IMG/VR virus record: IMGVR_UViG_3300033145_000733 | Location: 1-64,000 of that record | From: a virus | Strand: one strand, 5' to 3' | Length of the DNA: 64,000 nt | In this document: positions 14,631 through 64,000 of the stretch, piece after piece | Position numbering within the stretch: position 1 is the first letter of the stretch | Layout of the letters: the number at the start of each line of letters is the position of its first letter | Made by a program: the position numbers and the translations under genes | The notes under the pieces: model-generated | Database searches by the model: none | What the model saw: the letters and a program-made list of their open reading frames with translations, nothing else | Told to the model about the DNA's origin: nothing

Positions 14631-14659
14631 ATTATACCATAAGCCGTTATTATTGTCAA
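14631..14659 (-). promoter_or_regulatory. Promoter of the GGCTTATGG family
   Basis: TTGACA, spacer of 17 ending GGCTTATGG, TATAAT. Drives the MoxR-VWA operon. It overlaps the last codons of the upstream gene. Confidence 0.85.
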
Positions 14660-15678: not shown

Positions 15679-15698
15679 AATACCTCCAACCGAGTCGG

Positions 15699-15757
15699 GT
15701 GGAATGATGCCTTATTAACAGCATCCCCCCAGGGTGTCAACTGGGCATCATTTCCAC
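15699..15757. repeat. Long imperfect inverted repeat
   Basis: GTGGAATGATGCC (15699-15711) pairs with GGCATCATTTCCAC (15744-15757) with one bulged base. The loop holds a smaller CCCCCC/AGGGTG pairing. It lies between the membrane protein stop and the 41-aa gene; no clear T-run follows, so it may be an attenuator or processing site. Confidence 0.5.
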
Positions 15758-15768
15758 TCCGCAACTCC

Positions 15769-45028: not shown

Positions 45029-45486
45029 TGTTGAACAATCCATTTGATGGTGCAGATTTACAAGCTTTAGGTGAGGTTATTGAAACCAAATTAAACCAAA
45101 TCTGGAACTATTCTTTTTCTACTGTAAAATTAGCGACTCCCATTCCTCCAGTTGAATTGACATCTGATAATGTCGCCTTAGAATGGGGAGTATATAGTTC
45201 CAATATAATTGCTGCTGATGAAATAGCCGAAGGATTCGTTATTGTAGCGGGGGCTGTTGCAAATCCTGATGATAATGGGAATTATTATATAGAATTCTAT
45301 TATGGGGCTGAGGATACACCATGTACTAGTTTTGGATTCACCAAGACTAATCCATTTCAAGCGTCACTGTGGAGACCATTAAAAACTGAGATAATCCCTG
45401 CGAATTCAAGAGTGAGAGCTAGGTTAAGACATTCTGCTGGTAATGAAGCGACTTGTCTTGTAGGAGTATATTATCAGACAGTCTAA
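45028..45486 (+). CDS. Virion structural protein, 152 aa
   Basis: Beta-rich with FGFTKTNPFQASLWRPLKTE and NSRVRARLRHSAGNEATCLV, typical of jelly-roll decoration or fibre proteins. The GGAGGGTGTATA preceding its ATG is copied before the 45577 gene. Confidence 0.62.
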   Translation: MLNNPFDGADLQALGEVIETKLNQIWNYSFSTVKLATPIPPVELTSDNVALEWGVYSSNIIAADEIAEGFVIVAGAVANPDDNGNYYIEFYYGAEDTPCTSFGFTKTNPFQASLWRPLKTEIIPANSRVRARLRHSAGNEATCLVGVYYQTV

Positions 45487-45501
45487 AGATATTACAAAGG
45501 A

Positions 45502-45566
45502 GATACTGACATTGAAGCCCCAGGTGATGGTAAGAGAATTTGGGTTACTGATTTGTTTATAGAGTG
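45502..45566 (+). pseudogene. 65-bp gene fragment copied from the 46960 gene
   Basis: 63 of 65 bases match 47008-47072, encoding DIEAPGDGKRIWVTDLFIE in the parent gene. Here it lies in a non-coding gap and ends in TGA. A second junction copy, GAGGGTGTATAATGTT, flanks it (45017 and 45566). Evidence for recombination or domain shuffling among virion genes. Confidence 0.85.
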
Positions 45567-45576
45567 AGGGTGTATA

Positions 45577-46941
45577 ATGTTACGTAATACATATGATGAT
45601 ACAGGCTTACAAGGCAAGGTAGATAACGTAAGTGATGACCTTGGAGATAAGGGAGTAGGTAATGATACTATTACTCGTGTTCAAGCGATTATAGATGACC
45701 TTGCCAATGGCACAGATGGTTTGGGAGCTTTAAAAGCTTTAATTGATGTGTTACCAACAGTTATGCGTGGAACAGATAATGCTGCACTCGTGTCTGATGC
45801 AGGTAATTTCACAAGCGGTAGGGCAGTAACAGCTACATTACGAGTATCACCTAATGGGGATAACAGTGATGGTGAAACATGGTCAACCGCATATAATGAA
45901 ATTCAGACAGCGTTAAATGCTGCTAGTACAGATGTTAATGCGTTAACTTTAATATTAATAGCCCCCAAAACTGGTAATGTTCATTATGACATCAACACCG
46001 CAGGTGATCCAACTTGGTCAGCTAATGTAATTCTTAAGGGGTCACACAGAACGTGGGTTAAGATTATGAACGATAATGTTGGGGCAACTTCAATAATGAA
46101 ACTAACTGGGTATGCCAGTCTTAATGACCTTAACTTTAATCTTGGAGAGTCTAACAATGGTGTTATTTTTACCAAGGGAGCATTTAGAGCAGGGCACTTG
46201 CAGTTTGTCGGTGAAAATTTGACTGGGGCAATAACTAGAACTGCTTTGCACATGGATGGTGCTTCTCCAATTAAGCATGGTAAGTTATCAGATATTCACT
46301 TTCTTGGTGCTGGTGGAACTCATATGATTGCTATGCTATTTGATAATTGTGTACGTTCAGAAGTTTCACATATAAGGGCGCATCAGTGTTTGACAGGTGC
46401 TCAGTTTGTAAATTCAAGCGATAGTAACTATCTTATTGATATAGATCTTGGTGATTGTGCTGTTGGTCTTGATATTGATTCTGGTGATGTTCAGCACTTT
46501 ACAAATATAACTTTTCATGATTGTGCTTTAAATGTAGATGATGTTACAAGGAATCATGTTTGGATGGGTATACATGGTCAGTTTCCTGTTACCGTTGAAC
46601 CAGTAACAATACCAGATTATACTGGTGTAGTAGTATCAGCAGGGGAGGATGCTTATGGTTCTGATACAGAGTTACGTGCTGCTGGTACAGCCAAACCATT
46701 CAAGATTTTAGGGTATAGGTTTGAACCATCAGAAGAGAAGAAGTTTATGATACGATTTTCAGCTAACGCTGGAGCACCATACTTTGATATGGCTTTAATT
46801 GAAGTTAAGAAGAATAAAGCTCAAGGAGCTTCAGAGGGAACAGATTTCATATTTAATGCTGGTACTAGAATATCCGCAAGTGCTGGTTGTGAAGTCGCAG
46901 GCAAGTCTGTTCAAATCTGGTTGGAGATACAGGAGATATAA
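45577..46941 (+). CDS. Tail fibre or tailspike-like protein, 454 aa
   Basis: N-terminal coil (LQGKVDNVSDDLGDKGVGND), then a region with beta-helix repeats (about 85-330: TLRVSPNGDNSDGETWSTAY and short N/D-rich turns) like pectate-lyase-type tailspikes, and a C-terminal jelly-roll-like part (EEKKFMIRFSANAGAPYFDM). Probably recognises or depolymerises host surface glycan. GAGGG ribosome site. Confidence 0.75.
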   Translation: MLRNTYDDTGLQGKVDNVSDDLGDKGVGNDTITRVQAIIDDLANGTDGLGALKALIDVLPTVMRGTDNAALVSDAGNFTSGRAVTATLRVSPNGDNSDGETWSTAYNEIQTALNAASTDVNALTLILIAPKTGNVHYDINTAGDPTWSANVILKGSHRTWVKIMNDNVGATSIMKLTGYASLNDLNFNLGESNNGVIFTKGAFRAGHLQFVGENLTGAITRTALHMDGASPIKHGKLSDIHFLGAGGTHMIAMLFDNCVRSEVSHIRAHQCLTGAQFVNSSDSNYLIDIDLGDCAVGLDIDSGDVQHFTNITFHDCALNVDDVTRNHVWMGIHGQFPVTVEPVTIPDYTGVVVSAGEDAYGSDTELRAAGTAKPFKILGYRFEPSEEKKFMIRFSANAGAPYFDMALIEVKKNKAQGASEGTDFIFNAGTRISASAGCEVAGKSVQIWLEIQEI

Positions 46942-46959: not shown

Positions 46960-47265
46960 ATGAATAGATTTGGATGGGGTTCAACCCCCCTAATACACAT
47001 ATTAACTGATATTGACATTGAAGCCCCAGGTGATGGTAAGAGAATTTGGGTTACTGATTTGTTTATAGAATGTGGAGCAAACACAACATTACAGTTAAAA
47101 GAAGTTGGTGGTGATTTTATAACACCATCAGCTAGTAAAATTGACCACACGTTTGCCGCACCGATAAAGTGTGCAACTAATACTGGCATTAGCGTAGAAA
47201 AAACTGGTATTGGGTTGGCTGTCATTATTATTGGTTACTATATTGAAGGAGCAACCCACAACTAA
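46960..47265 (+). CDS. Small virion protein (jelly-roll-like), 101 aa
   Basis: LIHILTDIDIEAPGDGKRIW, then VTDLFIECGANTTLQLKEV. Beta-rich; the parent of the fragment at 45502. Possible fibre tip or decoration. It ends one base inside the endonuclease gene. Confidence 0.65.
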   Translation: MNRFGWGSTPLIHILTDIDIEAPGDGKRIWVTDLFIECGANTTLQLKEVGGDFITPSASKIDHTFAAPIKCATNTGISVEKTGIGLAVIIIGYYIEGATHN

Positions 47266-48008
47266 TGAGAGTAGCAGTTGATTATGATGCTTTAGTAGGT
47301 TACTATACTTCTGGTAAAAGTTTATTGGACGTTGCTGGTATCATTGGTTGTTGCTCAAATACCGTTACTAATAGGTTGCGTAAGTGTGGTATTGGTATTA
47401 GAACATTATCTGAGGCTCAAATTATTCGTAGACATAGAAGTGTTTCTATAAATAGTAGTTTGTTGTGTGTGTTGGATGGGTTATTGTTGGGTGACGGCAA
47501 TTTATCGTCTCCTAGAGGTAATCAAGCTGTTTACCATCAAGATAGTAGCGAGAAAGAATTTATAGATTATGTTTCTAGTGTTTTAAGTAATAGCGGTTAT
47601 TTGGCTACTAAATATGATTATGATAGGTTTGACAAACGTACAAAGAAGATGTATCATTCTTATTCGTTAAACTCCATTTTTACGGTGGAGTTACAGAAAC
47701 AATATGATAGATGGTATAAAAATGGTATTAAAATTGTCCCGCTAGATCTATTAATAACACCTGTAGTATTGATGCTGTGGTATCTTAGTGATGGTTACAA
47801 AGATAGAAGATGTCATAATATAGTTATTGCTACAGATTCATTTAAGAAGGAAGAGGTTGAAAGTCTTGTATATAGGTTTTCATTGATTGGTATTCCTTCA
47901 CATAGACAAGAAAATAATAGAATAAGAGTAAATGCTGATGGGTACGATACGTTTATGTCTTATATTGGAGGATGCCCAATTGGATGTTATAGACACAAAT
48001 TTTCCTAA
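47265..48008 (+). CDS. LAGLIDADG-family homing endonuclease
   Basis: LLCVLDGLLLGDGNLS (residues 66-81) and LMLWYLSDGYKD near 169-180 are the two LAGLIDADG helices in one chain. An N-terminal helix-turn-helix (SLLDVAGIIGCCSNTVTNRL) may aid DNA binding. It is free-standing, not inside an intron or intein. Sits directly before the reductase gene and overlaps it, a common target location. Length 247. Confidence 0.85.
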   Translation: MRVAVDYDALVGYYTSGKSLLDVAGIIGCCSNTVTNRLRKCGIGIRTLSEAQIIRRHRSVSINSSLLCVLDGLLLGDGNLSSPRGNQAVYHQDSSEKEFIDYVSSVLSNSGYLATKYDYDRFDKRTKKMYHSYSLNSIFTVELQKQYDRWYKNGIKIVPLDLLITPVVLMLWYLSDGYKDRRCHNIVIATDSFKKEEVESLVYRFSLIGIPSHRQENNRIRVNADGYDTFMSYIGGCPIGCYRHKFS

Positions 48009-50336: not shown

Positions 50337-50853
50337 GAAGTATCTAGAGGAGTATGAACTTGATGAGTTGAACCAAGCTAATGATATGGCAGCTCTAACT
50401 CATATGTGCCAACTGGAAGTTAATGTTGAGCAAATTCAAGAGGCTCTCAGCAAGATAAAAGATCCTCTTGAGGATTCTAAGAAAATTAGAGAGCTTCAGA
50501 GTGCGTTACGTGATGCTAATCAGAATTGGGTGACACTTCAGCAAGAACTTGGTATTAGCAGGAAAAAGAGACAAAGTGATAGTGATGAGTCTCCATTACA
50601 ATATGTTGAAAGACTTCAAGAACTTGGTAAGAAGTTTATAAGTAGCAGATTAAAGAAATTGGTGTGCTCTAAGTGTGGACAGGTTTTAGGTAAGTATATG
50701 TTTTATGTCACGGATAAGGGTGAGAAGGGGTCATTGGAAAGTGATATTAAACCAATTGAACCTTATAAATTTACAGTTCGTCACGAGTGTTGGAAGTGTG
50801 GTGAGATAACTGAGGTTTCAAACGAAGAATTTGAGCTGGCGGTGCAGGAATGA
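50293..50853 (+). CDS. Terminase small subunit-like / packaging factor, 186 aa
   Basis: Basic start (MGRKRKGQEVQEKIEKYLEE), a coil, and a C-terminal ribbon CSKCGQ with CWKCGE. Position directly before TerL and helical composition suggest a packaging role; the sequence itself is not typical TerS. ATG after AAGGAAGG. Confidence 0.58.
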   Translation: MGRKRKGQEVQEKIEKYLEEYELDELNQANDMAALTHMCQLEVNVEQIQEALSKIKDPLEDSKKIRELQSALRDANQNWVTLQQELGISRKKRQSDSDESPLQYVERLQELGKKFISSRLKKLVCSKCGQVLGKYMFYVTDKGEKGSLESDIKPIEPYKFTVRHECWKCGEITEVSNEEFELAVQE

Positions 50854-52445
50854 AGGAAAAGGTAACACTTAGCGAAGGTGACCTTGCTGTATTGGAAATA
50901 GTTGAAGACCCAGTTATGTTCAGCGAGTTTATTAGGAGCGTTGAGGATGATGTTGATAATGGCGGTTATGGTTGGCATTATGATAACTATCAAAGAAAAA
51001 TGTTAATTGATAGTTCAAATTATATCAGTATAGCTACTGGTAGAACCACTGGTAAGACGGCTAGTATGGAGACAAAGATTATTCACGATGCGGTCTCAAA
51101 TAAATATAAGAGAGCAAGTGCTAATGAGATATTATTAGTGGTTCAGAATAAGTCACAGTTAGAACCCGTATTTTTGCGTCTTATTAACTTTTTTAGGAGG
51201 CATCCTCTGTTGACCTACTTTATTGATAGGTTAAGTGTCAACATGTCAAGTCACGAAATAAGATTGTTAAATGGTTGTTTAATAAGGTGTAGAATTGTTG
51301 GTTCTACAGCAGACAGCAATGTTATCGGGTTACATGTCCCATGTATATATGTTGATGAGGGTCAGGTTTTTAATTATACAGCATGGAATAGTCTTATGCA
51401 GTGCCTAACGACATGGGACGATGGTTTTAATTTGTGGGTCAGTGGTGTACCAAATGGTTTACGTGAGAAAAATGTTCTTTATGAGTGTGACCAAGTAGAC
51501 CAAAAATTTTCACGTCATAATATCTCAAGGATAAGTAGTATTAGATACACAAAGCAACAGCATGAAACAGACCTTAAACAGTATGGTGGTGAGAATGGTG
51601 ATGATTATATTCATTTAGTTCTTGGAGAACACGGTTCACCAGCTTTTTCTGTGTTTGATAGAAAGTTAATGAGAATAGAGGATTATCCTGTTGCGGTGTT
51701 TGTGTTAAATAATATATCTTTAGACCAGCACAATGGTCAGTTTAATGAGCTTCTAAGATTACCAGACCTTCCTTCTGATATTAAGAGTAAGCATGACCTA
51801 ATAGTGGCTGGAATAGATGCTGGTTTCTCTAATGACCCAACTGTTATCACTATTTTATGGAGAGAAAAAGTAACTTTAGTGTGGAGAATATTTGCTCGCA
51901 TAGAGTTAAGGAGAATAAAGTACCCTATACAGGCTAAGATAATTGATTGGTTAGATACTATTTATAGGTTTAATATGATAACCGTTGATGCTGGACATTC
52001 TGGTTTGGCGTTGTGTCAAATATTACAGGATGATAGCGGGGAATTTAAAGCCAAGAATTTTGAAAAGAGATTGATTCCTGTTGACTTTCAAGCTAGTGTT
52101 GTTGTTGGCTATGATGAAGATGATAAAGAGGTAAAGGATAGGGTTAGAAAGTTTACAATTCAAACATTACAAACGTGGAGTCAGAATGACCAAATAATTG
52201 CGTTTACTACCCAGGATGATGATATGATTACTGAGCTAGAGAGGGTTGGTTTTACCAGAGACATGCTTGGTCAGCCAAAGTTCTTTGTCTATTCACCGCA
52301 AGGTGGTCAGAGGGGTGAAGACCATTTACTAGCTTCTCTTTTGACGTGGGTATATGGGTATTATTACAGATACTATTCCCCAGAAAAACCAAATGCTAAA
52401 GGTAAATATAGTGATTTAGCTCGTGGTGGATGGAATGTTCGGTAG
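50850..52445 (+). CDS. terL: Terminase large subunit
   Basis: Packages DNA into heads. ATPase: Walker A GRTTGKT (64-70), Walker B CIYVDEGQ with Asp169-Glu170. Nuclease: GIDAGFSNDPT (321-331), ITVDAGHSG and GEDHLLAS supply the acidic metal ligands. Length 531. Overlaps the preceding gene by four bases. The marker gene for a tailed phage. Confidence 0.95.
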   Translation: MKEKVTLSEGDLAVLEIVEDPVMFSEFIRSVEDDVDNGGYGWHYDNYQRKMLIDSSNYISIATGRTTGKTASMETKIIHDAVSNKYKRASANEILLVVQNKSQLEPVFLRLINFFRRHPLLTYFIDRLSVNMSSHEIRLLNGCLIRCRIVGSTADSNVIGLHVPCIYVDEGQVFNYTAWNSLMQCLTTWDDGFNLWVSGVPNGLREKNVLYECDQVDQKFSRHNISRISSIRYTKQQHETDLKQYGGENGDDYIHLVLGEHGSPAFSVFDRKLMRIEDYPVAVFVLNNISLDQHNGQFNELLRLPDLPSDIKSKHDLIVAGIDAGFSNDPTVITILWREKVTLVWRIFARIELRRIKYPIQAKIIDWLDTIYRFNMITVDAGHSGLALCQILQDDSGEFKAKNFEKRLIPVDFQASVVVGYDEDDKEVKDRVRKFTIQTLQTWSQNDQIIAFTTQDDDMITELERVGFTRDMLGQPKFFVYSPQGGQRGEDHLLASLLTWVYGYYYRYYSPEKPNAKGKYSDLARGGWNVR

Positions 52446-52457
52446 TGGAGATTTATA

Positions 52458-54317
52458 ATGAGAAAAAATGTTAGTACTGGAAAGTTAAAACCAGGTAAGC
52501 TGGTCAAGGCATCGGTTAATGTTCTAACAGACCCGTCACAGACTGGTTTGAGATTCACTGAAGAGGTGGATAGAATGGAGTTGCCGAAGGAGTATCACAA
52601 GTTGATAAAGACTTGTAGGTTCTTCTACAAACGTGACCCAATTGCTGGTACTGTTTTGAATAAGATGGTTGATTGTGCCATTACCCCACTATCAAATAGA
52701 AAATCAGAGTGTAGCGATGAAGAGTATGAGGTATATAATGCTTTGACCGAGATGCTCCAAGAGTTCTTTAGGAACGTGTGCCTAGAGTATCTGTTATCTG
52801 GTTTAGTTGTTCCACATTATGAGTGGGTCAGGGTCAAGGGTAGTGATCTTTCTCAGAAATTAAATTCTAGACGTAGAGTAAATGTTCCTGATAATATTTG
52901 GTTTAGAGACCCTGCAACGCTTACCGTTAAGAATTCTGTCATACCAAATAAGAAATATTATTATGTTGATGTTGATGCGAGAACTATATCTTTTGTCAAG
53001 AATAAGGGTAAGTATCCTGATGGTACAGTTGATAAGGAAATGTATGAGGAGATGGTAAAGAATTACCCCGCATTTGTGGCTGCTATTCAGAAAATGAAGG
53101 GTACTAAAATGCAGATTAAATTGGAAGACATTAGACCAATTCTTGCCAAGACTCTTCCAGAAGATAATTATCCAGTACCATATATGGAGAATGCTATTGA
53201 GTCATTGGTTCATAAGAGAAACTTGAGGAAAATGGATTATGCTATTGCTGCCAGAGTGGTATCAGCTATTCAAATGATTAAGTTGGGTAATGATGAATTT
53301 CCATGTACTGATGAGTCTGATTTTGACCATATAAAGAATCAAATGAATTATAGGACTTCTACAGGTTATCAAGAACGAGTGTATCAATTGTTTGCAAATC
53401 ACACTCTTGAGATTGAGTGGGTATATCCTAACACAGAAGCTATGCTAAACACTGAGAAGTATCGTGCCGTTGAGGATGATATAATTGCTGCTTTTGGGTT
53501 TCCTAGAACATTGATTACTGGTGAAACTCTAAGGTCTAATGTTCAAGGTGGTTCTGATTTTGCGGCATTCTCTCCTATTGCTACTATGGAAACCATAAGA
53601 GATAGGTTACTTGAGTGGACTAAAGGGTTGTATAAGGAAATTAGGGACAAAAATGACCACATTAAAAATTATCCTTCACCACAATTTACACCAATGAGAC
53701 TTTACAAGTTAACTGACCTTAATGATATTGGTGAATCATTGTACAAAGAAGGTAATATCTCAAGAACATCAAGACAAGAGCAAGTTGGTCTTGATTTTGA
53801 GACTGAAATTGAGAGAAAGGTTCAAGAAGAGAAAGAAATGAAGGCTAAGGGAGTTCCTGATGCTCCACAATTACCGTTCTCTTCTCCTAAGATTGGCAAC
53901 CCTAACCAAAATGTAAACAATCCTACTGATAAGAAAGAGAAAGAGGCAGAACTTGACATCAGTGCGGCTTTAGCATCACTATCACCAGAGCAAATTGCAG
54001 AGCATTACAAACCATTGGAAGATTTTGCATATCTTATTCATCATGTTGAGGTTGATGAAAAAGGAAAAGAGATACTACATCATTGTTTACTTTATGACCA
54101 TATAGCCAATATGTATGTTCAATCACATCTTGTAATAAAGGATGGTATGGTATATATGAATGGTAAGAAGGCTGAAGAAGGTAGATACCATGTAATCTCT
54201 GGTTTAGAACCAGAGCAGGAGGTGGTATGGAGTGATGAAGAAGCTACTGACGCTGATATTAAACCAAAGCAAATGCACAGTGGTATGACTAAAAAGGAAA
54301 AGTCAAAGGAGTGGTAA
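52458..54317 (+). CDS. Portal protein, 619 aa
   Basis: Follows TerL. YHKLIKTCRFFYKRDPIAGT, IPNKKYYYVDVD and AFGFPRTLITGETLRSNVQG are portal-like stretches of the clip and crown. The C-terminal 100 residues are charged and may be an extension. GGAG ribosome site. Forms the DNA entry ring. Confidence 0.87.
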   Translation: MRKNVSTGKLKPGKLVKASVNVLTDPSQTGLRFTEEVDRMELPKEYHKLIKTCRFFYKRDPIAGTVLNKMVDCAITPLSNRKSECSDEEYEVYNALTEMLQEFFRNVCLEYLLSGLVVPHYEWVRVKGSDLSQKLNSRRRVNVPDNIWFRDPATLTVKNSVIPNKKYYYVDVDARTISFVKNKGKYPDGTVDKEMYEEMVKNYPAFVAAIQKMKGTKMQIKLEDIRPILAKTLPEDNYPVPYMENAIESLVHKRNLRKMDYAIAARVVSAIQMIKLGNDEFPCTDESDFDHIKNQMNYRTSTGYQERVYQLFANHTLEIEWVYPNTEAMLNTEKYRAVEDDIIAAFGFPRTLITGETLRSNVQGGSDFAAFSPIATMETIRDRLLEWTKGLYKEIRDKNDHIKNYPSPQFTPMRLYKLTDLNDIGESLYKEGNISRTSRQEQVGLDFETEIERKVQEEKEMKAKGVPDAPQLPFSSPKIGNPNQNVNNPTDKKEKEAELDISAALASLSPEQIAEHYKPLEDFAYLIHHVEVDEKGKEILHHCLLYDHIANMYVQSHLVIKDGMVYMNGKKAEEGRYHVISGLEPEQEVVWSDEEATDADIKPKQMHSGMTKKEKSKEW

Positions 54318-55022
54318 GTGATAATTTATCCTGATAATTGGAGTACAATCGGTGCAATTGTTGGTGTATCTCAAGTAGAGGATACCATTGAGCAGGTAAC
54401 CAAGGACGTACCGTGTTGCGCCTTGTCGCTTTCTGGTGGTGTTGATTCTGCTTTATTGCTTTATTATATGAGCAAGCATAACACACAAGTTAGAGCTTAT
54501 ACTATTGGTTATTCAGAAAATCATCCTGATGTTATTTATGCCAGGAAGATATGTAAGCAATTTGATAATGTTAAGCATGTTGTACATATACCGAAATCAA
54601 AGGTGGAAACAGTGGGATGTGATTTGGATGGTGACGAAGCTGTGAGAGAATTTTACAAGTTCGTTGGTAGTTTTGAGGAGTCTATCGTAACTGGTGATGG
54701 TATTGATGAATTTATGTGTGGTTATTATAAGCACCAACAGGACAAAACTGATGAAACGTACTATAAGTGCATTAGAGAGCTTTTTTCCATTCAACTAGAA
54801 CCGTTAAACAGAAACTCTGGTGGTGTTTTAGTATATTTACCGTATTTGGATGATAGGTTATTGCGGTTATTAGTAATGATACCTACTAGTGAAAAGGTTG
54901 ACATTGATAATAGGAAGAAGATAATAATTAGTATTGCTAAGGATAAATTACCCAGTTCTATTGTGTATAGAAGGAAGTACGGTTTTTGTAATGCTCTTAA
55001 TGATATACGGGAAAGTAAATAA
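54318..55022 (+). CDS. Asparagine-synthase-like PP-loop amidotransferase
   Basis: SLSGGVDSALL (37-47) is the ATP-pyrophosphatase loop, and TGDGIDEFMCGY the second AsnB motif. Lacks the N-terminal glutaminase, so ammonia must come from a partner. Similar proteins (WbpG type) make amidino or amide groups on surface sugars. GTG start after AAGGAG. First gene of the sugar cluster. Confidence 0.82.
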   Translation: MIIYPDNWSTIGAIVGVSQVEDTIEQVTKDVPCCALSLSGGVDSALLLYYMSKHNTQVRAYTIGYSENHPDVIYARKICKQFDNVKHVVHIPKSKVETVGCDLDGDEAVREFYKFVGSFEESIVTGDGIDEFMCGYYKHQQDKTDETYYKCIRELFSIQLEPLNRNSGGVLVYLPYLDDRLLRLLVMIPTSEKVDIDNRKKIIISIAKDKLPSSIVYRRKYGFCNALNDIRESK

Positions 55023-56230
55023 TGGCTCTAAAAAGATATTCTGGTGCTGTGTATGATAAAGAAGAAGTGCTGAAGATGTTTTCAGCAATCCTAGATGGTT
55101 GGTGGACTGGTGGTAAGTACACTAAGGAGTTCCAAGACGAGTTTGCCAAACTTTTTAGTGTGAAGTATGCGCTAGCTTGTAACTCTGGTTCGTCTGCTAA
55201 TTTACTAGCTGTTAGTGCTTTAGAGTTGGACAAAGGAAGTGAGGTTATAACACCACTTTGTACGTTTCCAACAACACTCAATCCAATAATACAGTGTGGT
55301 CTTATTCCAGTTTTTGTGGATGTTGATGATACTTTTAATATAAATACTAAACTTCTGGAGCAAGCAGTCTCCGAGAAGACACGACTTATAATGATTCCCC
55401 ACACTATGGGCAATCCTTGTTATATGGATGATATTATGAATATTTGTTCTAAGTATAACTTGAGGTTAATAGAGGATTGTTGTGATGCTATAGGAGCAAA
55501 GTATAATAATAAGTACGTGTCGTCATTTGGTGATTTAGCAACCTTTAGTTTTTATCCTGCCCATCATATGACTACTGGTGAAGGTGGAATGGTAGTCACT
55601 AATGATGATGATTTAGCCAAGAAAGTTAGAAGTTATCGTGATTGGGGCAGAATGTGTAACTGTGATCCTTGTTTAGAGATGACTAAACAGGATTATATTT
55701 GTGCCGAGAGGAGAAATTTTGCCATAGACGGTGTACCATATGATAAACGATATGCTTATGGTTGTATAGGCTACAACCTTAAAATGACGGAGATTCAAGC
55801 TGCTATGGGTATTGCTCAAATGCACAAACTTAGTGAATTTATTAAGAAAAGAAACGAAAATTATAGTACGCTATTGGAGTGTCTTAGTCACACCAAGTGG
55901 TTACGTTTCCCTGTTACCAATGGAGAACCATCTTGGTTTGTGTTTCCTATATGGATTGCTGATGGAGCACCGTTCAGGAGAGATCAAGTAGTAGAGTATT
56001 TAGAGGAACATGAGATACAGACTAGACCAATATTTGCTGGTAATGTTTTGAAACAACCAGCGTATAAGGATATACAGTGTAGAGTGGTAGGAAATACTTG
56101 GTGGTCGGATAAGTTATTCCATGACTCTTTCTTTGTTGGTGTTTATCCTGGGTTGAGCAAGAATGATGTACAGTATATTGGAGACGTGTTAAATGATATT
56201 GATAACGGGCGGGCTAGGTTTTCTAGGTAG
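55022..56230 (+). CDS. rfbH-like: RfbH-type PLP/[2Fe-2S] sugar 3-dehydrase
   Basis: DegT/DnrJ fold. The PLP-binding Lys is replaced by His in SFYPAHHMTTGEGG (His181/182), the mark of 3-dehydrases such as RfbH and E1, which remove the 3-OH of a 4-keto-6-deoxy sugar. Cys154, Cys212 and Cys214 reproduce the C-x57-C-x-C spacing of the E1 [2Fe-2S] site; Cys217 or Cys227 could be the fourth. Length 402. Product: a 3,6-dideoxyhexose intermediate. Confidence 0.83.
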   Translation: MALKRYSGAVYDKEEVLKMFSAILDGWWTGGKYTKEFQDEFAKLFSVKYALACNSGSSANLLAVSALELDKGSEVITPLCTFPTTLNPIIQCGLIPVFVDVDDTFNINTKLLEQAVSEKTRLIMIPHTMGNPCYMDDIMNICSKYNLRLIEDCCDAIGAKYNNKYVSSFGDLATFSFYPAHHMTTGEGGMVVTNDDDLAKKVRSYRDWGRMCNCDPCLEMTKQDYICAERRNFAIDGVPYDKRYAYGCIGYNLKMTEIQAAMGIAQMHKLSEFIKKRNENYSTLLECLSHTKWLRFPVTNGEPSWFVFPIWIADGAPFRRDQVVEYLEEHEIQTRPIFAGNVLKQPAYKDIQCRVVGNTWWSDKLFHDSFFVGVYPGLSKNDVQYIGDVLNDIDNGRARFSR

Positions 56231-57125
56231 TAATTTAGCTGAGAATTTGGTAAAGGATAATCACCAAGTTGTATTGGTGACAAGAAGTGACAAAAAATTG
56301 GGCAACATTAGCAATATTGTTAATGATGTGATTGTTGAATACGGAGATGTTACTGATGATAAATGGTTGACCAAGGTAATATTAACATATAAACCGTCTA
56401 TTATTTTTCACTTTGCGGGACAACTTACTTCCTACGAATCTTTTGATTATCCGCTTTATGACGTTGATGTAAACTGTAAGTCTACTTTAACCATATTAGA
56501 AGCTATGAGGTGGTTACCCGACCCATGTCGTCTAGTTTTAGGCAGTACTTTTTGGGTTATTGGTAAACCTGATACCCTTCCTATAAATGAAAATACTCCT
56601 TGCAATCCGCAGAATATTTATGCGGCTAATAGGTTGGCTAGTGAGAACTATTGTAAGATATACAATAGGGTTTATGGTTTAGATGCGGTAACTATTAGGT
56701 TAACCAACACGTTTGGTATTAGGGAACAGCATGACAGCAAAAAGAAAGCTGCTCTTAATTATTTGCTATATAGAGGGTTGAAGGGTGAGGTGGTTACCAT
56801 ATACAGTGATGGCAATTTTTTTAGAGATTATATTTATGTTTCTGATGTTGTAACAGCAGCAAGGAGTGTCATGGACAACGGGAAAGCTGGTGAATGCTAT
56901 TTTGTTGGTACTGGAGTGAAGACGTGGTTTTATGACATTGGTGAGTGGATAAAAGAGTTAACAGGGTGCAAAATTGAGTATATTGAACCACCAGATTACC
57001 ACAAAAGAATTGACGTGGGTAGTATTGTAATTGATAATCAGAAACTTAAAAATCTTGGATGGGATTGGGAGGTAACAGTCAAAGATGGACTTAAACTTAC
57101 TTTAGAGTCTTATGAGGTATTGTAG
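56193..57125 (+). CDS. Extended SDR nucleotide-sugar epimerase/reductase, YxxxR variant
   Basis: GGLGFLGSN (6-14) is the NAD-binding glycine motif. The catalytic Tyr143 lies in IYAANRLASE, so the usual YxxxK is YAANR: Lys is replaced by Arg147. The cluster suggests abequose or paratose-type reductase. Overlaps RfbH by 38 bases. Activity is uncertain. Confidence 0.75.
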   Translation: MILITGGLGFLGSNLAENLVKDNHQVVLVTRSDKKLGNISNIVNDVIVEYGDVTDDKWLTKVILTYKPSIIFHFAGQLTSYESFDYPLYDVDVNCKSTLTILEAMRWLPDPCRLVLGSTFWVIGKPDTLPINENTPCNPQNIYAANRLASENYCKIYNRVYGLDAVTIRLTNTFGIREQHDSKKKAALNYLLYRGLKGEVVTIYSDGNFFRDYIYVSDVVTAARSVMDNGKAGECYFVGTGVKTWFYDIGEWIKELTGCKIEYIEPPDYHKRIDVGSIVIDNQKLKNLGWDWEVTVKDGLKLTLESYEVL

Positions 57126-58043
57126 ATGAAAATATGTGTTACTGGTGGTGCTGGTTTCATAGGTGCTAATTTTGTTAAGTTTTTGCGTGACAAGTATAGT
57201 GATTTAGACATTACTGTTATTGATAAGCTGACCTATGCTTCTAATATAGAAAACTTGGATGGGCTTGATGTAAGACTTGTTGAGGAAGATATTTGTGACC
57301 TAAAACCGATACACTTTGATAGTTTTGATGTGGTTTACCATTTTGCTGCTGAATCACATGTTGATAGAAGTATCCTATATCCACAGCTCTTTTTAAGGAG
57401 TAATGTTCTAGGGACGGTTAATTTGTTGTCTTTGTGCAAAACAATTGGAGTTGGTAGGTTTGTTTATATCAGTACTGATGAAGTATACGGGTCTGTTGAC
57501 CGTTCAAGTAGAGAAGCTGATATACTTGACCCGTCATCTGCTTATTCCGCTAGTAAGGTGGCGGCTGAGTGTTTTTGTAATGCTTATCATAAAACTTTTG
57601 ATATTCCAATAGTTGTCACAAGGAGTTCCAATAATTTTGGTCCTTATCAGCACCTAGAAAAGTTAATTCCTATTGTTATTACCAATGCTATAAGTGATAA
57701 TAAGATACCGATACACGGTACGGGTGGGTATATTAGAGATTGGATTTATGTGATGGATAATTGCGAGGGTATAGAGTTCGTTGGTAGAAATGGCATTTTA
57801 GGTGAGGCGTATAATATTGGTGGTGGAAACCAGTTAACTAATTTAGAAATCACTGATAAAATATTAAATATATTGGGCAAACCAATGACACTGGTAGAGT
57901 TTGTAACCGATAGACCAGGACAAGATAACGAATATAATTTAGACTGTTGGAAAGTTGCCAAGTTGGGGTGGAAACCTAAATACGATTTTGATCAGGCTTT
58001 AGAAATTACTGTTGGGTGGTATAAAAAACAATGGAAAAGGTAG
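57126..58043 (+). CDS. rmlB-like: Nucleotide-sugar 4,6-dehydratase (RmlB-like)
   Basis: GGAGFIGANF (7-16) binds NAD. STDEVYG near 116-122 (Thr117, Asp118, Glu119 catalytic) and YSASK (Tyr140, Lys144) are intact; RSSNNFGPYQ is typical of RmlB. Makes a 4-keto-6-deoxy sugar, the substrate for RfbH. The end overlaps the glycosyltransferase gene by 13 bases. Confidence 0.88.
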   Translation: MKICVTGGAGFIGANFVKFLRDKYSDLDITVIDKLTYASNIENLDGLDVRLVEEDICDLKPIHFDSFDVVYHFAAESHVDRSILYPQLFLRSNVLGTVNLLSLCKTIGVGRFVYISTDEVYGSVDRSSREADILDPSSAYSASKVAAECFCNAYHKTFDIPIVVTRSSNNFGPYQHLEKLIPIVITNAISDNKIPIHGTGGYIRDWIYVMDNCEGIEFVGRNGILGEAYNIGGGNQLTNLEITDKILNILGKPMTLVEFVTDRPGQDNEYNLDCWKVAKLGWKPKYDFDQALEITVGWYKKQWKR

Positions 58044-58846
58044 TTATAGCAATACCCACTTTTAACAATATCAAATATACAAAACTAGCTCTTGCCTCCA
58101 TAAAATGTTCTTTTCAGCATGAGGTTCTAGTTATTGATAATGGGTCTATGGATGACACTGTTACTTGGTTAATTGATAACAATGTTAATCATATAGCCTA
58201 CAAGGAAAATAGAGGATTCTCGTATGCTTATAACGAGGCAATGGATTATGCTTTTAGTTCAGATGCTTTTTTATTATTCGCAGCTAATGATATTGTGTTT
58301 TATCCAAATAGTATAGATCACATGGTTCAAGCATTGCTTGAGTCAGGGTTTGAAATATTGTGTGGGCATGAAATTTTAAATAAGACAATCGTTGAGGCAG
58401 AGAATGCTAATCTTCTACTGGAAGAGTTTCCTTATCAATTATCTTTTGATAAGAAAGAGTATGATTCCCTGCAATATAGTGCTGGTGGGATGAATCACAG
58501 TTGCATTGTTAGACAAAAATCTTCGTTTGATACAGTTGGGTATTATGATGTTAATTTTTATCCTGCTTATTTTGAAGATAATGACTATGCTCGGAGATGT
58601 AATTTATTAAATGTAAAATATGGGACAGTAGCTTCTGCTATGTTTGAGCATTTTTGGAGTAGGTCTATTTATGAGGGTGGTGTTCAAGCGTTAAACAATA
58701 GGAGATTTCCCAAGAATAAAGAGTACTATGTTAAAAAGTGGGGTGGTGGTGTTGGTGAGGAACAGTATGAAATACCGTTTAATTCACAAGGTATAAAAAT
58801 CTCATCCAGAGAACATGAATTAAAGGTTTTAATGGGTTTAATGTGA
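58031..58846 (+). CDS. Family 2 glycosyltransferase
   Basis: VVIAIPTFNNIKYTKLALAS start, DNGSMDDT and later FEDNDYARR match GT2 (A fold). The second acidic motif is AANDIVF instead of DxD, so metal binding may differ. 271 residues. Probably transfers the sugar made by the preceding genes. Confidence 0.85.
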   Translation: MEKVVIAIPTFNNIKYTKLALASIKCSFQHEVLVIDNGSMDDTVTWLIDNNVNHIAYKENRGFSYAYNEAMDYAFSSDAFLLFAANDIVFYPNSIDHMVQALLESGFEILCGHEILNKTIVEAENANLLLEEFPYQLSFDKKEYDSLQYSAGGMNHSCIVRQKSSFDTVGYYDVNFYPAYFEDNDYARRCNLLNVKYGTVASAMFEHFWSRSIYEGGVQALNNRRFPKNKEYYVKKWGGGVGEEQYEIPFNSQGIKISSREHELKVLMGLM

Positions 58847-59499
58847 GAGATGTAAGAGAGTTTAAGGACATTCATAAGGGTGAGCGATGCTTTGTAATAG
58901 GTACTGGTCCATCTTTGAATAGTACTAATTTTGGGTTACTAAAAGATGAGATTACTTTTGGTGTAAATACTTTATATGTTGGACTTGACCGTTTTAAGAT
59001 AAAACCTCGTTATTGGGGTATTTCTGATCCGCAAATAATGACTGGACATTACACGCAGGTTTCTAAATTGGATACAACTATATTCTTAGCACATAACGCC
59101 CACAAAATCTACGCTAGTAATCCGACTCGGTATAAGTCACACCAAGAACCTGTTTTACTCCGTTCATATGGTAAGTTTTCCATTGACCTGACAAAAGGGG
59201 TTGCTTGTGGGATGACTGTTGTTTATGATATTGGTTTACAGGTCGCTTATTATATGGGTTTTGATGTGGTTTATCTTTTGGGTGTTGATGCTGATTATAG
59301 TGGTCCAAAGTCACACTTTTATGATAATCCCGATAAGCGGGGTAAGGGGATACCTAGTGCTCGTTCACTTCAGTCATATGGAGCAGCTAAGGTAGCTTTT
59401 GAAAAAGATGGAAGGGAAATAATAAACTGTACAGTTGGTGGTAAGTTAGAAGTATTTAAGCGAAGAAAATTGGAAGATGTAATAAATGAGAAACATTGA
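58843..59499 (+). CDS. MptE/DUF115-like glycan protein, copy 1
   Basis: FKDIHKGERCFVIGTGPSLN (6-25), ISDPQ and GMTVVYDIGLQVAYYMGFD near 120-140, GVDADYSG. This pattern belongs to MptE-like/DUF115 proteins, some of which act in flagellin or surface glycosylation; the GTGPSL loop also resembles sialyltransferase GT42. Starts at GTG. Confidence 0.8.
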   Translation: MRDVREFKDIHKGERCFVIGTGPSLNSTNFGLLKDEITFGVNTLYVGLDRFKIKPRYWGISDPQIMTGHYTQVSKLDTTIFLAHNAHKIYASNPTRYKSHQEPVLLRSYGKFSIDLTKGVACGMTVVYDIGLQVAYYMGFDVVYLLGVDADYSGPKSHFYDNPDKRGKGIPSARSLQSYGAAKVAFEKDGREIINCTVGGKLEVFKRRKLEDVINEKH

Positions 59500-61672
59500 A
59501 GATTTTAAAGATATACATAAAGGTGAGCGTTGTTTTATTGTAGGTACGGGTCCATCTCTAAATAGAACCAATCTTGCATTGCTAAAGGATGAGATTGTTT
59601 TTGGTGTGAATGGTTTGCATATTGGATTAGAGAAGTTTCAAATAAAACCTCGTTATTGGGGGTTTTCTGACCCCCGTACAATTAAAAGTCACCACAACCA
59701 GGTTTTTCCACTACCTACCACTGTATTTGTGGCAGTTGGAGCACGTGAGTGGTATTTAGACAACTTACCAAAGTTCAAAGAGTTCAACAATGATCCTGTT
59801 GTACTTGCGGCGATAAGACGACCAACATTAGTACCATTTTCTACTGATATTACTAAAGGAGTTACTTGTGGGAGAACAGTAGTCTATGATGTCTGCCTCC
59901 AAGTAGCGTATTACATGGGGTTCAGTAAAGTTTATTTGTTGGGTTGTGATTGCGATTATTCTGACCATTCCAATACTCACTTTTATCATGATCCATCTCA
60001 AGCGGATATTGCTGATGTGGCTGAATCATTACAACCTAAACGGCTTTTCGCTTATCAAAACGCCAAAGAAGCGTTTGAGGCTGATAAGAGGGAAATAATA
60101 AACTGTACAGTTGGTGGTAAGTTAGAAATTTTTAAACGTGAAAGATTAGAGGATGTAATGAAAACTGATGTTGTAGTAAGAGAAAATAGGGAAAAGAATT
60201 TTTTTGTGGTCATAGCGAATAGGAATAGGTTTAAACTTACGTCTGATTGTATTAAGTCTCTTTATCAAGGTGACTATCCTAACTTTCAAGTGATTGTTGT
60301 TGATGATGCTTCTACTGATAAGAGTCCTGATTTGATTTCTGAGCATTTTCCGCAGGTAGAGCTGATTAGAAATACCACATGTCTTGAGTTTTGCAAAACG
60401 TTCAACGTTGGTATTAGGAGAGCTTTAGAAAGGGGAGCCGATTATGTATTTGTTTTGTCCAATGATACGTTAGACTTTTCTAAAAACTATATTAGTAGGG
60501 TGATAGAGACGTTTGAAAAGGATGATGAGATAGGTTTAGTTGGTTCTAAAGTATTATTTGAAAATGGAACAGTAAGATGGGGTGGTGAAAGCAAGGTGAC
60601 ACTGCACTGTCGCTTCGATACCCCAGACTGTGGTTATGTAATCAGGAGAGAAGTGCTAGAACAGGTGGGTCTGTTTGATGAAGATTATATAAGGTATTTT
60701 GAACTTTTAGACTATATTTTAAGATTAAGAAATGCTGGTTATAAGACTCAATATGTTGATGATATTAGTTTTGTACACGTTGGTCAGAAGACTGTTTCTA
60801 GAGTAAGTTATTCTTTTCACTACTACCGTGTGCGGGCTACGTATGTCTTTGTTAAGCAGTGGTTCAATGATGAGTCTGAATCGTGGAAAGATGCCGAGAG
60901 AGATGCAGTAATACAGGTAAATTACAAGCTTTTGAACGATGCTCCCGAAGAGTCGAAGGCTGTGATTGCTAAAGCAATAGAGGATGGTAGGAAAGCAGGA
61001 CAACGGTACGCTGCTGACTTTAATTTCCGAGTTAATGATGGTGAAATAAGGTTTTATCAAATATTGCAAATTAGTCCTCACCTTGATAAGTATTTGGATG
61101 GGAGCATTGATGAGTATGAAAAATTGAAAGACGAAATTGGTACACCAAAGAAAGTATTGGAGTTGGGGTGTGGTATAGGAAGAAGCTCAATATTCTTAAA
61201 GAATATGCTTAACTTGACCGCTAAATTTTATTTAGCAGATTTTGATTCTAATGAATACTACAAAGAGGGTAGGAAAAAAGAGTTTCTTGGGTATGTCAAA
61301 GAACCAGTTCCGTTCAACAGTTTAGAAGTCACGAAAAGGTTTTGTATTGACAATAACCTAGAAAATTTAGAGTTGGTGGACTTGGCAACGGACAATATAA
61401 AAGAATTGAGTGATGTAGATTTAGTTTACTCGTTTAACGCAGTTGGCTACCATTGGTCAATTGAGGATGCTGTAAGGAAGTATGACTTAGAAAACATAAC
61501 TACGAAAGATGTAAAATTTATATTTGGAGTTAGGAATAAACGAAGTAAGAAGGGAGTTCCTGTTGGGGGAGCTAGTTATGAGGAACAGGCAAGTATAATT
61601 GATTCACTATATTTGGATAAGATAATAAGCGGCGATGGTATCCAAGATTATTGGGTATACAGGAAAAGATAG
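59486..61672 (+). CDS. Triple fusion: DUF115-like, GT2, methyltransferase, 728 aa
   Basis: Residues 1-220 copy the neighbours (FKDIHKGERCFIVGTGPSLN). About 230-440 is a GT2 domain (VVIANRNRF, VDDASTDKS). About 545-728 is a SAM methyltransferase with VLELGCGIGRSS. One chain therefore recognises, glycosylates and methylates. Overlaps copy 1 by 14 bases. Confidence 0.88.
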   Translation: MRNIEDFKDIHKGERCFIVGTGPSLNRTNLALLKDEIVFGVNGLHIGLEKFQIKPRYWGFSDPRTIKSHHNQVFPLPTTVFVAVGAREWYLDNLPKFKEFNNDPVVLAAIRRPTLVPFSTDITKGVTCGRTVVYDVCLQVAYYMGFSKVYLLGCDCDYSDHSNTHFYHDPSQADIADVAESLQPKRLFAYQNAKEAFEADKREIINCTVGGKLEIFKRERLEDVMKTDVVVRENREKNFFVVIANRNRFKLTSDCIKSLYQGDYPNFQVIVVDDASTDKSPDLISEHFPQVELIRNTTCLEFCKTFNVGIRRALERGADYVFVLSNDTLDFSKNYISRVIETFEKDDEIGLVGSKVLFENGTVRWGGESKVTLHCRFDTPDCGYVIRREVLEQVGLFDEDYIRYFELLDYILRLRNAGYKTQYVDDISFVHVGQKTVSRVSYSFHYYRVRATYVFVKQWFNDESESWKDAERDAVIQVNYKLLNDAPEESKAVIAKAIEDGRKAGQRYAADFNFRVNDGEIRFYQILQISPHLDKYLDGSIDEYEKLKDEIGTPKKVLELGCGIGRSSIFLKNMLNLTAKFYLADFDSNEYYKEGRKKEFLGYVKEPVPFNSLEVTKRFCIDNNLENLELVDLATDNIKELSDVDLVYSFNAVGYHWSIEDAVRKYDLENITTKDVKFIFGVRNKRSKKGVPVGGASYEEQASIIDSLYLDKIISGDGIQDYWVYRKR

Positions 61673-61674
61673 AG

Positions 61675-62439
61675 ATGAGAGGCATTAAAAAATTTAAAAA
61701 CATCCACAAGGGTGAAAGATGTGTTATCATCGGGACAGGTCCATCTCTTGTTGACACAAATTTTGACCTAATTAAAGATGAAATTTTGTTTGGTTGTAAC
61801 TCGTTGTTCAGAGGGTATAAGGATTTTGGCATTTCTTGTCGTTATTATGGTGTATCGGACGGTCTTACCATGTCACGTCCGCATGTTAGAGGGCTATTGT
61901 CTCTTGATACTACTTTGTTTCTAACTGTTACTGCTTATGATTATTGTTTTAACAACCCAAACATGTGTGTTTGGCGTAGTGATAAGGTAATATCAAATAG
62001 TCGAGATAGGAGAGATTTGGAAGAGGTGTCAAAAATTAAACCACCAAAAAATTTAGTGAAGATAGGTGTTGCAATTAAAAAACCACCATACTTCTCTAAG
62101 GATTTATCTGATGGTGGTGGTATGGGTGGAACTGTTGTTTTTGATATTAGCTTACAAGTTGCTTATTATATGGGATTTAGCGAGGTTTATCTAATAGGTT
62201 GTGATAGTGATTATTCTCTTCCATTTCATTTTGATGGGTCACCACCTGATCGCTTTATTAATAACAAGATATTTGACCTCACATTACCATTTCTTGCTTA
62301 TACCCAAGCTAAGGAAGCTTTTGAAGAGCGTGGTGATAAGGTAATTAATTGCACTGTTGGTGGTAAGCTAGAGATCTTTGAACGTAAAAGCTTAGAGGAA
62401 GTTTTTGGAGGTACAGATGAGTTCAGACAGAATACTTAA
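61675..62439 (+). CDS. MptE/DUF115-like glycan protein, copy 3
   Basis: MRGIKKFKNIHKGERCVIIG, TGPSL, and GTVVFDISLQVAYYMGFSEV; GCDSDYS near the end. ATG at 61675, three bases after the previous stop; an earlier in-frame ATG overlaps it. Paralogue of the two preceding copies. Confidence 0.82.
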   Translation: MRGIKKFKNIHKGERCVIIGTGPSLVDTNFDLIKDEILFGCNSLFRGYKDFGISCRYYGVSDGLTMSRPHVRGLLSLDTTLFLTVTAYDYCFNNPNMCVWRSDKVISNSRDRRDLEEVSKIKPPKNLVKIGVAIKKPPYFSKDLSDGGGMGGTVVFDISLQVAYYMGFSEVYLIGCDSDYSLPFHFDGSPPDRFINNKIFDLTLPFLAYTQAKEAFEERGDKVINCTVGGKLEIFERKSLEEVFGGTDEFRQNT

Positions 62440-63415
62440 TATAGGAATTCTTGGTTTTGGTTACATGGGGCAAATTAGGAAGAAGTATTTGGATAGTAAT
62501 CCCAACTGCTCAGTTACGGCTATTTTCCATACTGAGAAGCTTATTGGAAAGTTCACATATTATGATAAGTGGGAAGACCTAGTTGATGACCCGTCTATAG
62601 ATGCCATCTTTGTTTGTCTACCTAATTTTCTTACCAAAGACGTAGTTATAAGGGGAATGCAAGCGGGAAAACACGTTTTTGCTGAGAAACCACCAGGTTG
62701 TTCGTCTACTGATGTATTAGAAATGATTGAAGTAGAGAAACAAACAACCAAGAAATTGAAATTTGGATTTTGTTTGCGTTACCATCCTGCTATTGTTGAG
62801 GCAAAGAGATTAGTTGATTCTGGAGATTTTGGCAATATATTGTGGTTACGTGGGAGATACGGTAAGAGCGTAGATAAAGATTTTACTTCATCATGGCGTG
62901 CTGACAGAAACTATGCAGGTGGTGGTATATTGTTGGATCAAGGTATGCACATGCTAGACTTGTTTTTGATGTTATGTGGTGATTTTCAAGAAGTGAAATC
63001 CTTTGTATCTAATTGTTATTGGAAAGGTGATGTAGAGGACAATGTTTTTGCTATTTTGCGTAATAATGATGGGCAAGTTGCTTCCTTACATTCAACTATA
63101 ACACAGTGGAGATATTTATTTTCATTGGAGATATTTCTTAGTAAAGGTTATATAATAGTAAATGGGTTGTTGTCCAAGTCTGGTAGGTATGGTAAAGAGA
63201 GGTTAACTTGGTCAGTTAATCGCACTCCTCCTCCGATGGCTTCACATCATTCCTCTGTAGAAACTACTTTTAGTACTGACCCATCGTGGGAACTTGAAGT
63301 GCATGAGTTTATTGGGGCTATTATGAATGATACTCCTATATTGGTTGGTACTACCGCAGATGCTCTTAGAGTAATGGTTGCTGTAGACAGGATTTATGAT
63401 AATGATAAAACATAA
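62417..63415 (+). CDS. Gfo/Idh/MocA-family oxidoreductase
   Basis: NIGILGFGYMGQI (NAD loop), VFVCLPNFL, HVFAEKPP (EKP motif), LLDQGMHMLDL. NAD-dependent sugar dehydrogenase. ATG after GGAGG is preferred. 332 residues. Overlaps copy 3 by 23 bases. Confidence 0.88.
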   Translation: MSSDRILNIGILGFGYMGQIRKKYLDSNPNCSVTAIFHTEKLIGKFTYYDKWEDLVDDPSIDAIFVCLPNFLTKDVVIRGMQAGKHVFAEKPPGCSSTDVLEMIEVEKQTTKKLKFGFCLRYHPAIVEAKRLVDSGDFGNILWLRGRYGKSVDKDFTSSWRADRNYAGGGILLDQGMHMLDLFLMLCGDFQEVKSFVSNCYWKGDVEDNVFAILRNNDGQVASLHSTITQWRYLFSLEIFLSKGYIIVNGLLSKSGRYGKERLTWSVNRTPPPMASHHSSVETTFSTDPSWELEVHEFIGAIMNDTPILVGTTADALRVMVAVDRIYDNDKT

Positions 63416-64000
63416 GATTTTAGTTTCACCAACTACGTTCAACAGTGAACCATTAAATCTTTTGGGTGATTACGAGATTATTAGAAACCCATTTGGAAGG
63501 GTAATGACATCTAGTGAGGTTATTGAGTTAGGTAGTGATTGCATAGGCATAGTTGCTGGTATTGAGACGCTTAACTCCGCTGTTTTGCATTCTCTTTCCT
63601 CATTACGTTGCATAAGTCGTTGCGGTGTTGGTGTTGATAATGTTGATCTAATAAAAGCAAAGGAATTAGGAGTAATTGTAGTAAACACACCAGACGCTCC
63701 CACCCAAGCGGTGGCTGAGTTGACGGTTGGGCTTATTCTGACTTTCCTGCGCCATGTGGCAGAAGCAGATACGGCTATTCGTGCAGGTAGATGGGTACAA
63801 CCTGTGGGAAGACTTCTGGGTAAGCAAAAGTTGGGTATTGTTGGTTGTGGCAGAATTGGCAGTGCTGTTGCTGATTTAATTAAACCTTTTGGTACTGAAT
63901 TACTGGGTTACGATTCTAATGTAAACAAACACCCGACAATACAATTGGTCTCGCTAGATGAGTTATTACAAGAAGTAGATATTGTATCTTTACATTTTCC
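63402..64000 (+). CDS. D-isomer 2-hydroxyacid dehydrogenase, 3' end outside window
   Basis: SRCGVGVDNVDL, AVAELTVGLIL, and GIVGCGRIGSAVADLI (Rossmann loop) are SerA-like. The C-terminal part is missing at the right edge. Its start overlaps the Gfo gene. May oxidise or reduce an acid used in the sugar pathway. Confidence 0.85.
   Translation, partial: MIKHKILVSPTTFNSEPLNLLGDYEIIRNPFGRVMTSSEVIELGSDCIGIVAGIETLNSAVLHSLSSLRCISRCGVGVDNVDLIKAKELGVIVVNTPDAPTQAVAELTVGLILTFLRHVAEADTAIRAGRWVQPVGRLLGKQKLGIVGCGRIGSAVADLIKPFGTELLGYDSNVNKHPTIQLVSLDELLQEVDIVSLHF

Follow-up and report, generated by a model that had tools for sequence, protein, structure and literature searches.

A sugar-gene cassette exchanged between the portal and head genes of uncultured tailed phages, a candidate virion-glycosylation locus

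The DNA analysed here (64,000 nucleotides, hereafter the window) comprises bases 1-64000 of IMG/VR virus record IMGVR_UViG_3300033145_000733, which is 66,524 bases long and is G000 in our lineage comparison. Directly behind its portal gene lies a cassette of sugar-synthesis and sugar-transfer genes, and, judging from predicted gene products, relatives of this phage swap an entire sugar pathway at that one site. We consider it somewhat probable that the cassette is an exchangeable virion-glycosylation locus. The evidence comes from the place of the cassette, its replacement among relatives and the kinds of enzyme that it encodes.

Relatives were collected by searching IMG/VR with the portal, a conserved GT-B glycosyltransferase and the capsid candidate, which gave about 20 contigs, five of them 134-153 kb long, from a lineage of uncultured tailed phages of about 150 kb. 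Their genes follow a constant order: ribonucleotide reductase, terminase, portal, cassette, a gene for 150-170 aa, the GT-B gene, another three genes, the probable major capsid protein and, farther on, a second GT-B. Nine loci include both edges (G002, G005, G008, G010, G011, G013, G014, G017 and L040), with the caveat that G010 and G017 are essentially identical at the locus and may be one phage counted twice, and that the G017 locus was joined across contig ends. All nine hold a sugar cassette, from 4.0 to 13.3 kb long and with every called gene on the plus strand, and none of the sites is empty, so the cluster is not a chance arrangement. Homology within the lineage stops in the portal tail and picks up again at the start codon (ATG) of the conserved gene that follows.

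We distinguish at least seven cassette types (A-G), with products assigned by family; several types are known in part, and the partial cassette of G015 is untyped. Type A is that of the window and of its closest relative, G001. Type B (G005) has RmlA-, RmlD- and RmlB-like genes, GT2s, a radical SAM enzyme, a methyltransferase, Gfo/Idh, an acetyltransferase and DegT, and type C (G003) has RmlA, RmlB, a CDP-glycerol phosphotransferase-like protein and a cytidylyltransferase. Type D (G002, G004, G008, G014, L044) combines GDP-fucose-synthase- and Gmd-like genes with C-methyltransferase, FkbM or DegT genes. Type E (G006, G007, G012) has a KdsD-like isomerase, a transferase and a nucleotidyltransferase, to which G012 adds a KdsC-like phosphatase, a CMP-sugar cytidylyltransferase, a 3-deoxy-D-manno-octulosonate (Kdo)-8-P synthase and three DUF115 proteins. 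Type F (G009, G010/G017, G011, L040) has a CDP-glycerol phosphotransferase-like protein, a nucleotidyltransferase-acetyltransferase, a class III aminotransferase and methyltransferases, and type G (G013) has a NeuB-like synthase, a cytidylyltransferase, a phosphatase, an HldE-like protein, two transketolase halves and radical SAMs. The predicted pathways include dTDP-deoxyhexose, GDP-fucose-like, Kdo, nonulosonate/heptose and CDP-glycerol-transferase-like ones, the last with sulfation genes. In G010 (L023, 11660-13194) and G017, these are an adenylylsulfate kinase fused to a nucleotidyltransferase-like domain and then a sulfotransferase, all inside the sugar cassette; a sulfated phage glycan is a possible product.

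What varies at the fixed site is the whole cassette. For example, G005 and G002 have portals that are 89% identical and capsid candidates that are 90% identical, and they have no cassette genes in common at 45% identity; G002 and G014, with portals 69% identical, have 11 of 12 cassette genes in common. Types D, E and F each lie scattered over a portal tree of 17 rows. Its eight states call for ten changes, and for type D the clustering does not beat that of shuffled labels, 217 of 500 shuffles giving a value as low. Several inner branches of this tree are weak, so our claim is limited to the scattering and does not extend to the exact history. Single genes move as well, DUF115 genes joining type A with E and a KdsC-like gene joining E with G. 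Among open-licence full texts, we found no earlier description of complete, unrelated nucleotide-sugar pathways being exchanged at one portal-capsid site with Maf-like transferases.

In the record studied here, the run occupies the plus strand from 54318 to the record end (66524) and has 12 genes, 10 of which start inside the window (Table 1). Its first gene begins 1 base past the portal stop codon, and later genes abut or overlap their predecessors (spacings of 0 to -101 nt); genes were called by simple open reading frame (ORF) rules, and some starts are probably placed too early. Because there are no gaps between portal and cassette or within the cassette, the run is likely to be transcribed together with the portal gene. 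The original prediction described a single rightward run directly after the portal, and both this placement and every family it named for 54318-64000 were borne out: a PP-loop Asn_synthase, RfbH, a short-chain dehydrogenase/reductase (SDR), an RmlB-like protein, GT2, three DUF115/MptE-like proteins, Gfo/Idh and a 2-hydroxyacid dehydrogenase. Some details changed: the run does not end at 64000, because DHQ-synthase-like (DHQ, 3-dehydroquinate) and FGGY-kinase genes extend it to 66524; the 'amidotransferase' has the synthetase (PP-loop) domain and lacks the glutaminase half; and the second of the three DUF115 proteins is a DUF115-GT2 fusion, which gives two GT2 domains in place of one.

The three DUF115 proteins all exceed the PF01973 gathering score of 34.6, at 43.1, 56.2 and 47.8 bits. 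Among solved structures, the modelled protein (pLDDT, the model's confidence score, 84) most resembles 5mu5, a Maf flagellin glycosyltransferase (Z 16.1, root-mean-square deviation 3.1, 193 residues aligned), ahead of an archaeal pterin enzyme (Z 12.7) and the sialyltransferase CstII (Z 11.8), which the DUF115 sequence profile also matches weakly (E 0.002). An MptE (pterin-enzyme) reading is disfavoured by the gene context and by the better Maf match. Instead of the three-domain Maf architecture, this cassette has single-domain proteins of 218 and 262 aa and one GT2 fusion, and we therefore call these proteins Maf-like rather than Maf. Maf enzymes O-glycosylate Ser/Thr of flagellin, and one accepts both CMP-N-acetylneuraminic acid (CMP-Neu5Ac) and CMP-Kdo (PMC11339370), the latter fitting type E, in which a cassette has Kdo genes accompanied by three DUF115 genes.

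Our best guess for the sugar product, based on predicted enzymes, is that it is probably a dTDP-linked 3,6-dideoxyhexose. The RfbH protein passes the curated cut-off of NF011936 (474.7 against 423 bits) and matches the E1 enzyme 3bcx (E 3e-105), with which it has the SFYPAHH motif in common, where His replaces the Lys that binds pyridoxal phosphate (PLP). The iron-sulfur cysteines of E1 follow the pattern C-X57-C-X-C-X7-C; in the protein here, Cys154-X57-Cys212-X-Cys214 is spaced as in E1 and the fourth Cys is displaced (217 or 227). With the E1 His in place of the PLP Lys and three of four cluster cysteines at E1 spacing, this homologue is expected to act as a C3-dehydrase rather than as an aminotransferase, which supports the 3,6-dideoxy sugar proposed earlier. 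For the dehydratase, TIGR01181 (the RmlB equivalog) is the best model by far yet falls just short of its cut-off (351.8 against 365.1 bits), so we use the name 'RmlB-like'; the CDP-glucose dehydratase model reaches only 98 bits. A dTDP link is favoured because the RfbH protein has this RmlB-like neighbour and because G001 has an RmlA-like gene in the place held here by the PP-loop gene. Classical E1 acts on CDP sugars with a dedicated reductase, and no partner reductase gene for the RfbH/E1 protein was seen in the cassette.

The Gfo/Idh, hydroxyacid dehydrogenase, DHQ-synthase-like and FGGY kinase genes look like a predicted route to a second, polyhydroxy building block. We rejected 2-deoxy-scyllo-inosose or valiolone synthase as the identity of the DHQ-synthase-like gene, the nearest solved proteins being plain 3-dehydroquinate synthases. 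The amidated sugar that had also been proposed is doubtful, the lone PP-loop domain being its sole basis. We set aside a 44% RfbH match in an unannotated 2.6-kb 'Salmonella phage' record, possibly host DNA.

If the cassette is a virion-glycosylation locus, its genes would probably be co-expressed with late structural genes and its enzymes would make activated sugars in the host cytoplasm. Here, the RmlB-like, RfbH-like and SDR enzymes would make the dTDP-linked sugar, with RmlA supplied by the host (or, in G001, by the cassette), and the four enzymes of the second predicted route would make the other block. The Maf-like DUF115 and GT2 enzymes would transfer these sugars directly onto a structural protein of the phage, either ahead of assembly or while it proceeds, and the conserved GT-B enzyme beside the capsid genes would probably participate in most members. 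Recombination would replace whole cassettes, giving virions with differing sugar coats, the benefit of which may be masking or display on the particle. More tentatively, and with slightly less than even confidence, we suggest a phage 'serotype locus': the lineage would keep its replication and virion genes while exchanging complete glycan pathways between portal and capsid genes (dTDP-linked ones of the 3,6-dideoxy kind, CDP-glycerol-transferase-like ones with 3'-phosphoadenylylsulfate (PAPS) and a sulfotransferase, and the others listed above), so that virion coats would differ, some being sulfated, with attachment partly by a Maf-like mechanism.

The original prediction left the acceptor as either virion proteins or the host surface. 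We favour virion proteins because the DUF115 fold is Maf-like, because the transferases are encoded within the virion gene module (cassette and GT-B gene both lie between the portal and the capsid candidate), because the neighbouring GT-B (PF00534) is conserved (46-73% identical, in eight of the nine loci) and has homologues near capsid genes of other phages, and because membrane polymer machinery is absent. On the last point, a simple hydropathy scan of 140 cassette ORFs found no multi-pass membrane protein, and in the 148-kb G005 record it found none of flippase or polymerase size, so a lipid-linked polymer export system is not evident. The main alternative is that cassette sugars are added to the lipopolysaccharide (LPS), teichoic acid or capsule of the infected cell, e.g., to block super-infection, with exchange tracking host surface types. 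Many of the enzymes are indeed those of O-antigen, LPS core (Kdo, heptose) or teichoic acid synthesis, and there are precedents: the pelagimyophage 'host recognition cluster', a variable island of about 45 kb with tail fibres between VrlC and gp14 of T4-like phages, was read as changing the host surface (PMC7029224), and long sugar clusters in cyanophages P-SSM2, S-SSM7 and S-SM2 have been described as LPS genes or as possible stuffer DNA (PMC3037559). Against this alternative, no flippase, polymerase, ligase or other multi-pass membrane protein was seen in any cassette, the genes abut the portal gene inside the head module, and the transferases are Maf-like; we regard host-envelope modification as unlikely on balance, about half as likely as glycosylation of a virion protein.

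Two other explanations deserve much less weight. Phage transferases that put diverse glycans on DNA are known (from a reference in PMC12619734), and G008 and G017 have short thymidylate-synthase-family genes, so the cassette might decorate hypermodified phage DNA; but no thymidylate-synthase/hydroxymethylase family gene was found in G000, G002, G005 or G013 (G000 and G002 being fragments), the cassette sits in the head module away from the replication genes, and the fold is Maf-like, all of which makes this very unlikely. Marginally less credible still is that the cassettes are non-functional cargo of headful packaging, like the stuffer DNA proposed for cyanophages, or misjoins of phage contigs to bacterial polysaccharide loci. 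In its favour, every member of the lineage is a metagenomic contig, but reading frames are intact and overlapping, none of the nine sites is empty, both phage flanks lie on one contig in nine cases, and cassettes of one type turn up on different contigs with about 45-88% identity at the protein level.

Virion glycosylation, the reading we prefer, also has evidence to contend with. The lineage is known from metagenomic contigs alone, with no virion, host or glycan observed, and soluble transferases might also use the LPS core or another cytoplasmic acceptor. The DUF115 proteins lack the Maf N- and C-terminal domains, the pterin enzyme has a similar fold, and DUF115 genes are confined to cassette types A and E. 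Where the donor of a DUF115 relative is known, it is a CMP-sugar, and the sequenced part of type A showed no CMP-sugar gene. The first GT-B gene is missing from G008.

Each of the known systems that resemble this one differs from it in some respect. Glycans on mycobacteriophage virions were reportedly shown experimentally by Freeman et al. in 2023 (cited in PMC12619734). The likeness is in phage-encoded transferases whose expected targets are capsid or tail proteins; the literature examined contained no description of whole pathways being swapped at a single site. With Maf flagellin glycosyltransferases (PF01973; 5mu5), the common features are the DUF115 fold, an expected cytoplasmic O-glycosylation of a self-assembling protein and, in type E, adjoining Kdo-pathway genes, whereas DUF115 proteins of this lineage are single domains of 218-304 aa or GT2-fused. 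Bacterial O-antigen and capsule loci likewise have conserved flanks around exchangeable sugar pathways, but the cassettes have no Wzx/Wzy or other membrane export proteins in the hydropathy scan and are sited in a phage head module.

The pelagimyophage cluster, like this one, is a big variable island in the structural region that is rich in glycosyltransferases and deoxysugar genes; here, however, the site extends from the portal to a head gene, and what relatives swap is entire nucleotide-sugar pathways. Of those cassette proteins that were scanned, none matched a tail-fibre family, about ten ORFs being without any family match. Long phage-borne runs of nucleotide-sugar and transferase genes are also found in the cyanophage LPS clusters and in Synechococcus phages S-H68 and RB11-B, the latter two with an RfbH-type protein about 33% identical to the one here, but those clusters sit near hli03/phoH and tRNAs or near tail/baseplate genes, and we did not notice a Maf-like protein in them. 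Homologues of the conserved GT-B enzyme (PHROG 2170, 23-30% identity) occur near the capsid in Synechococcus phage S-CBS4 (between portal and capsid genes), Microcystis phage Mae-JY09 (just behind the capsid gene) and TJE1 (also near nucleotide-sugar genes), and no large exchangeable cassette was seen in those records.

The usual view of sugar clusters in phages is that they modify the host surface or are filler, and the site, the exchange, the Maf-like transferases and the lack of polymer machinery here point instead to the particle. If that is true, phages diversify a sugar coat in the manner of an antigen, and the question becomes what selects for it: predators, host defences or adsorption to surfaces. 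The cassettes would also be a source of sugar pathways and protein transferases already matched in nature. Comparison of relatives makes the choice between virion and host directly testable.

Table 1. Coordinates of the cassette genes and of the two genes to their left (window numbering; aa, amino acids; NDP, nucleoside diphosphate)
Feature	Position	Strand	Evidence and remarks
Terminase large subunit, left flank	50850..52445	+	Named by position and conservation; 70-88% identical across lineage; no Pfam match
Portal protein, left edge of cassette site	52458..54317	+	PHROG portal 7e-07; lineage alignment
Lone PP-loop amide synthetase domain (Asn_synthase C-terminal domain, without glutaminase half)	54318..55022	+	Pfam PF00733 2.6e-23
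RfbH/E1-type NDP-4-keto-6-deoxyhexose C3-dehydrase	55022..56230	+	NCBIfam RfbH, above cut-off
Extended SDR, UDP-glucose 4-epimerase-like	56193..57125	+	Pfam PF01370 1e-47; nearest solved structure 4zrm 1.5e-37
RmlB-like NDP-glucose 4,6-dehydratase	57126..58043	+	TIGR01181, below cut-off
GT2 glycosyltransferase	58031..58846	+	Pfam PF00535 1.6e-13
DUF115 protein 1, Maf-like fold	58843..59499	+	PF01973 5e-11; AlphaFold model
DUF115 protein 2, 728-aa fusion: DUF115, GT2 and weak C-terminal methyltransferase match	59486..61672	+	PF01973 4.6e-15; PF00535 7e-17
DUF115 protein 3	61651..62439	+	PF01973 1.9e-12; true start probably ATG at 61675 (alignment)
Gfo/Idh/MocA oxidoreductase	62405..63415	+	PF22725 1e-25; PF01408 4e-17; relatives are sugar and inositol dehydrogenases
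2-hydroxyacid dehydrogenase	63396..64000	+	PF02826/PF00389; cut by window end, 302 aa in record (to 64304)
DHQ-synthase-like gene	to 65373, beyond window	+	Record region 62300-66524
FGGY kinase gene	to 66524 (record end), beyond window	+	

Conservation of single cassette genes varies. The PP-loop protein is 44% identical to the first cassette gene product of G008, the RmlB-like protein is 64-74% identical in G001, G003 and G005, and the GT2 glycosyltransferase at 58031..58846 is 80% identical in G001 and 41% in G005. A C-terminal extension of the portal, about 110 aa (window about 53980-54317), is common only to G000 and G008, whose cassettes both begin with a PP-loop gene, so extension and gene seem to travel together.

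Outside the cassette, the probable major capsid protein is 76-91% identical across the lineage; its name rests on position, size and conservation (predicted structure pLDDT 31), and comparing it with the capsid and portal of S-CBS4 yielded no usable result. The only cultured relatives found were Bacillus phage G for the portal (20.6%) and Microcystis phage MaeS for the capsid candidate (26.6%); searches with the terminase and DUF115 proteins found none, and portal and capsid profiles found no relative in one genome per species (84,980 species).

Several further features were noted. A LAGLIDADG homing endonuclease gene (PF03161; window 47265-48008) overlaps the start of the ribonucleotide reductase gene and was not seen there in G005 or G002. 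At 44219-46941 of the window, three ORFs (269, 152 and 454 aa; no Pfam match) are inserted between genes that are adjacent in G005 and G002; the 454-aa one resembles a right-handed beta-helix by eye, and the insertion could possibly encode an exchangeable surface or tail protein, i.e., a candidate acceptor or receptor binder. Downstream of its capsid candidate, G017 carries a second insertion, of 9 kb (L033, about 6700-15800), whose 520-, 811- and 716-aa proteins look tail- or surface-like. GT-B homologues also occur near structural-looking genes in unrelated viral contigs (L046/L047 and L050), lying downstream of a DegT aminotransferase in L047 and after methyltransferase- and radical-SAM-like genes in L050.

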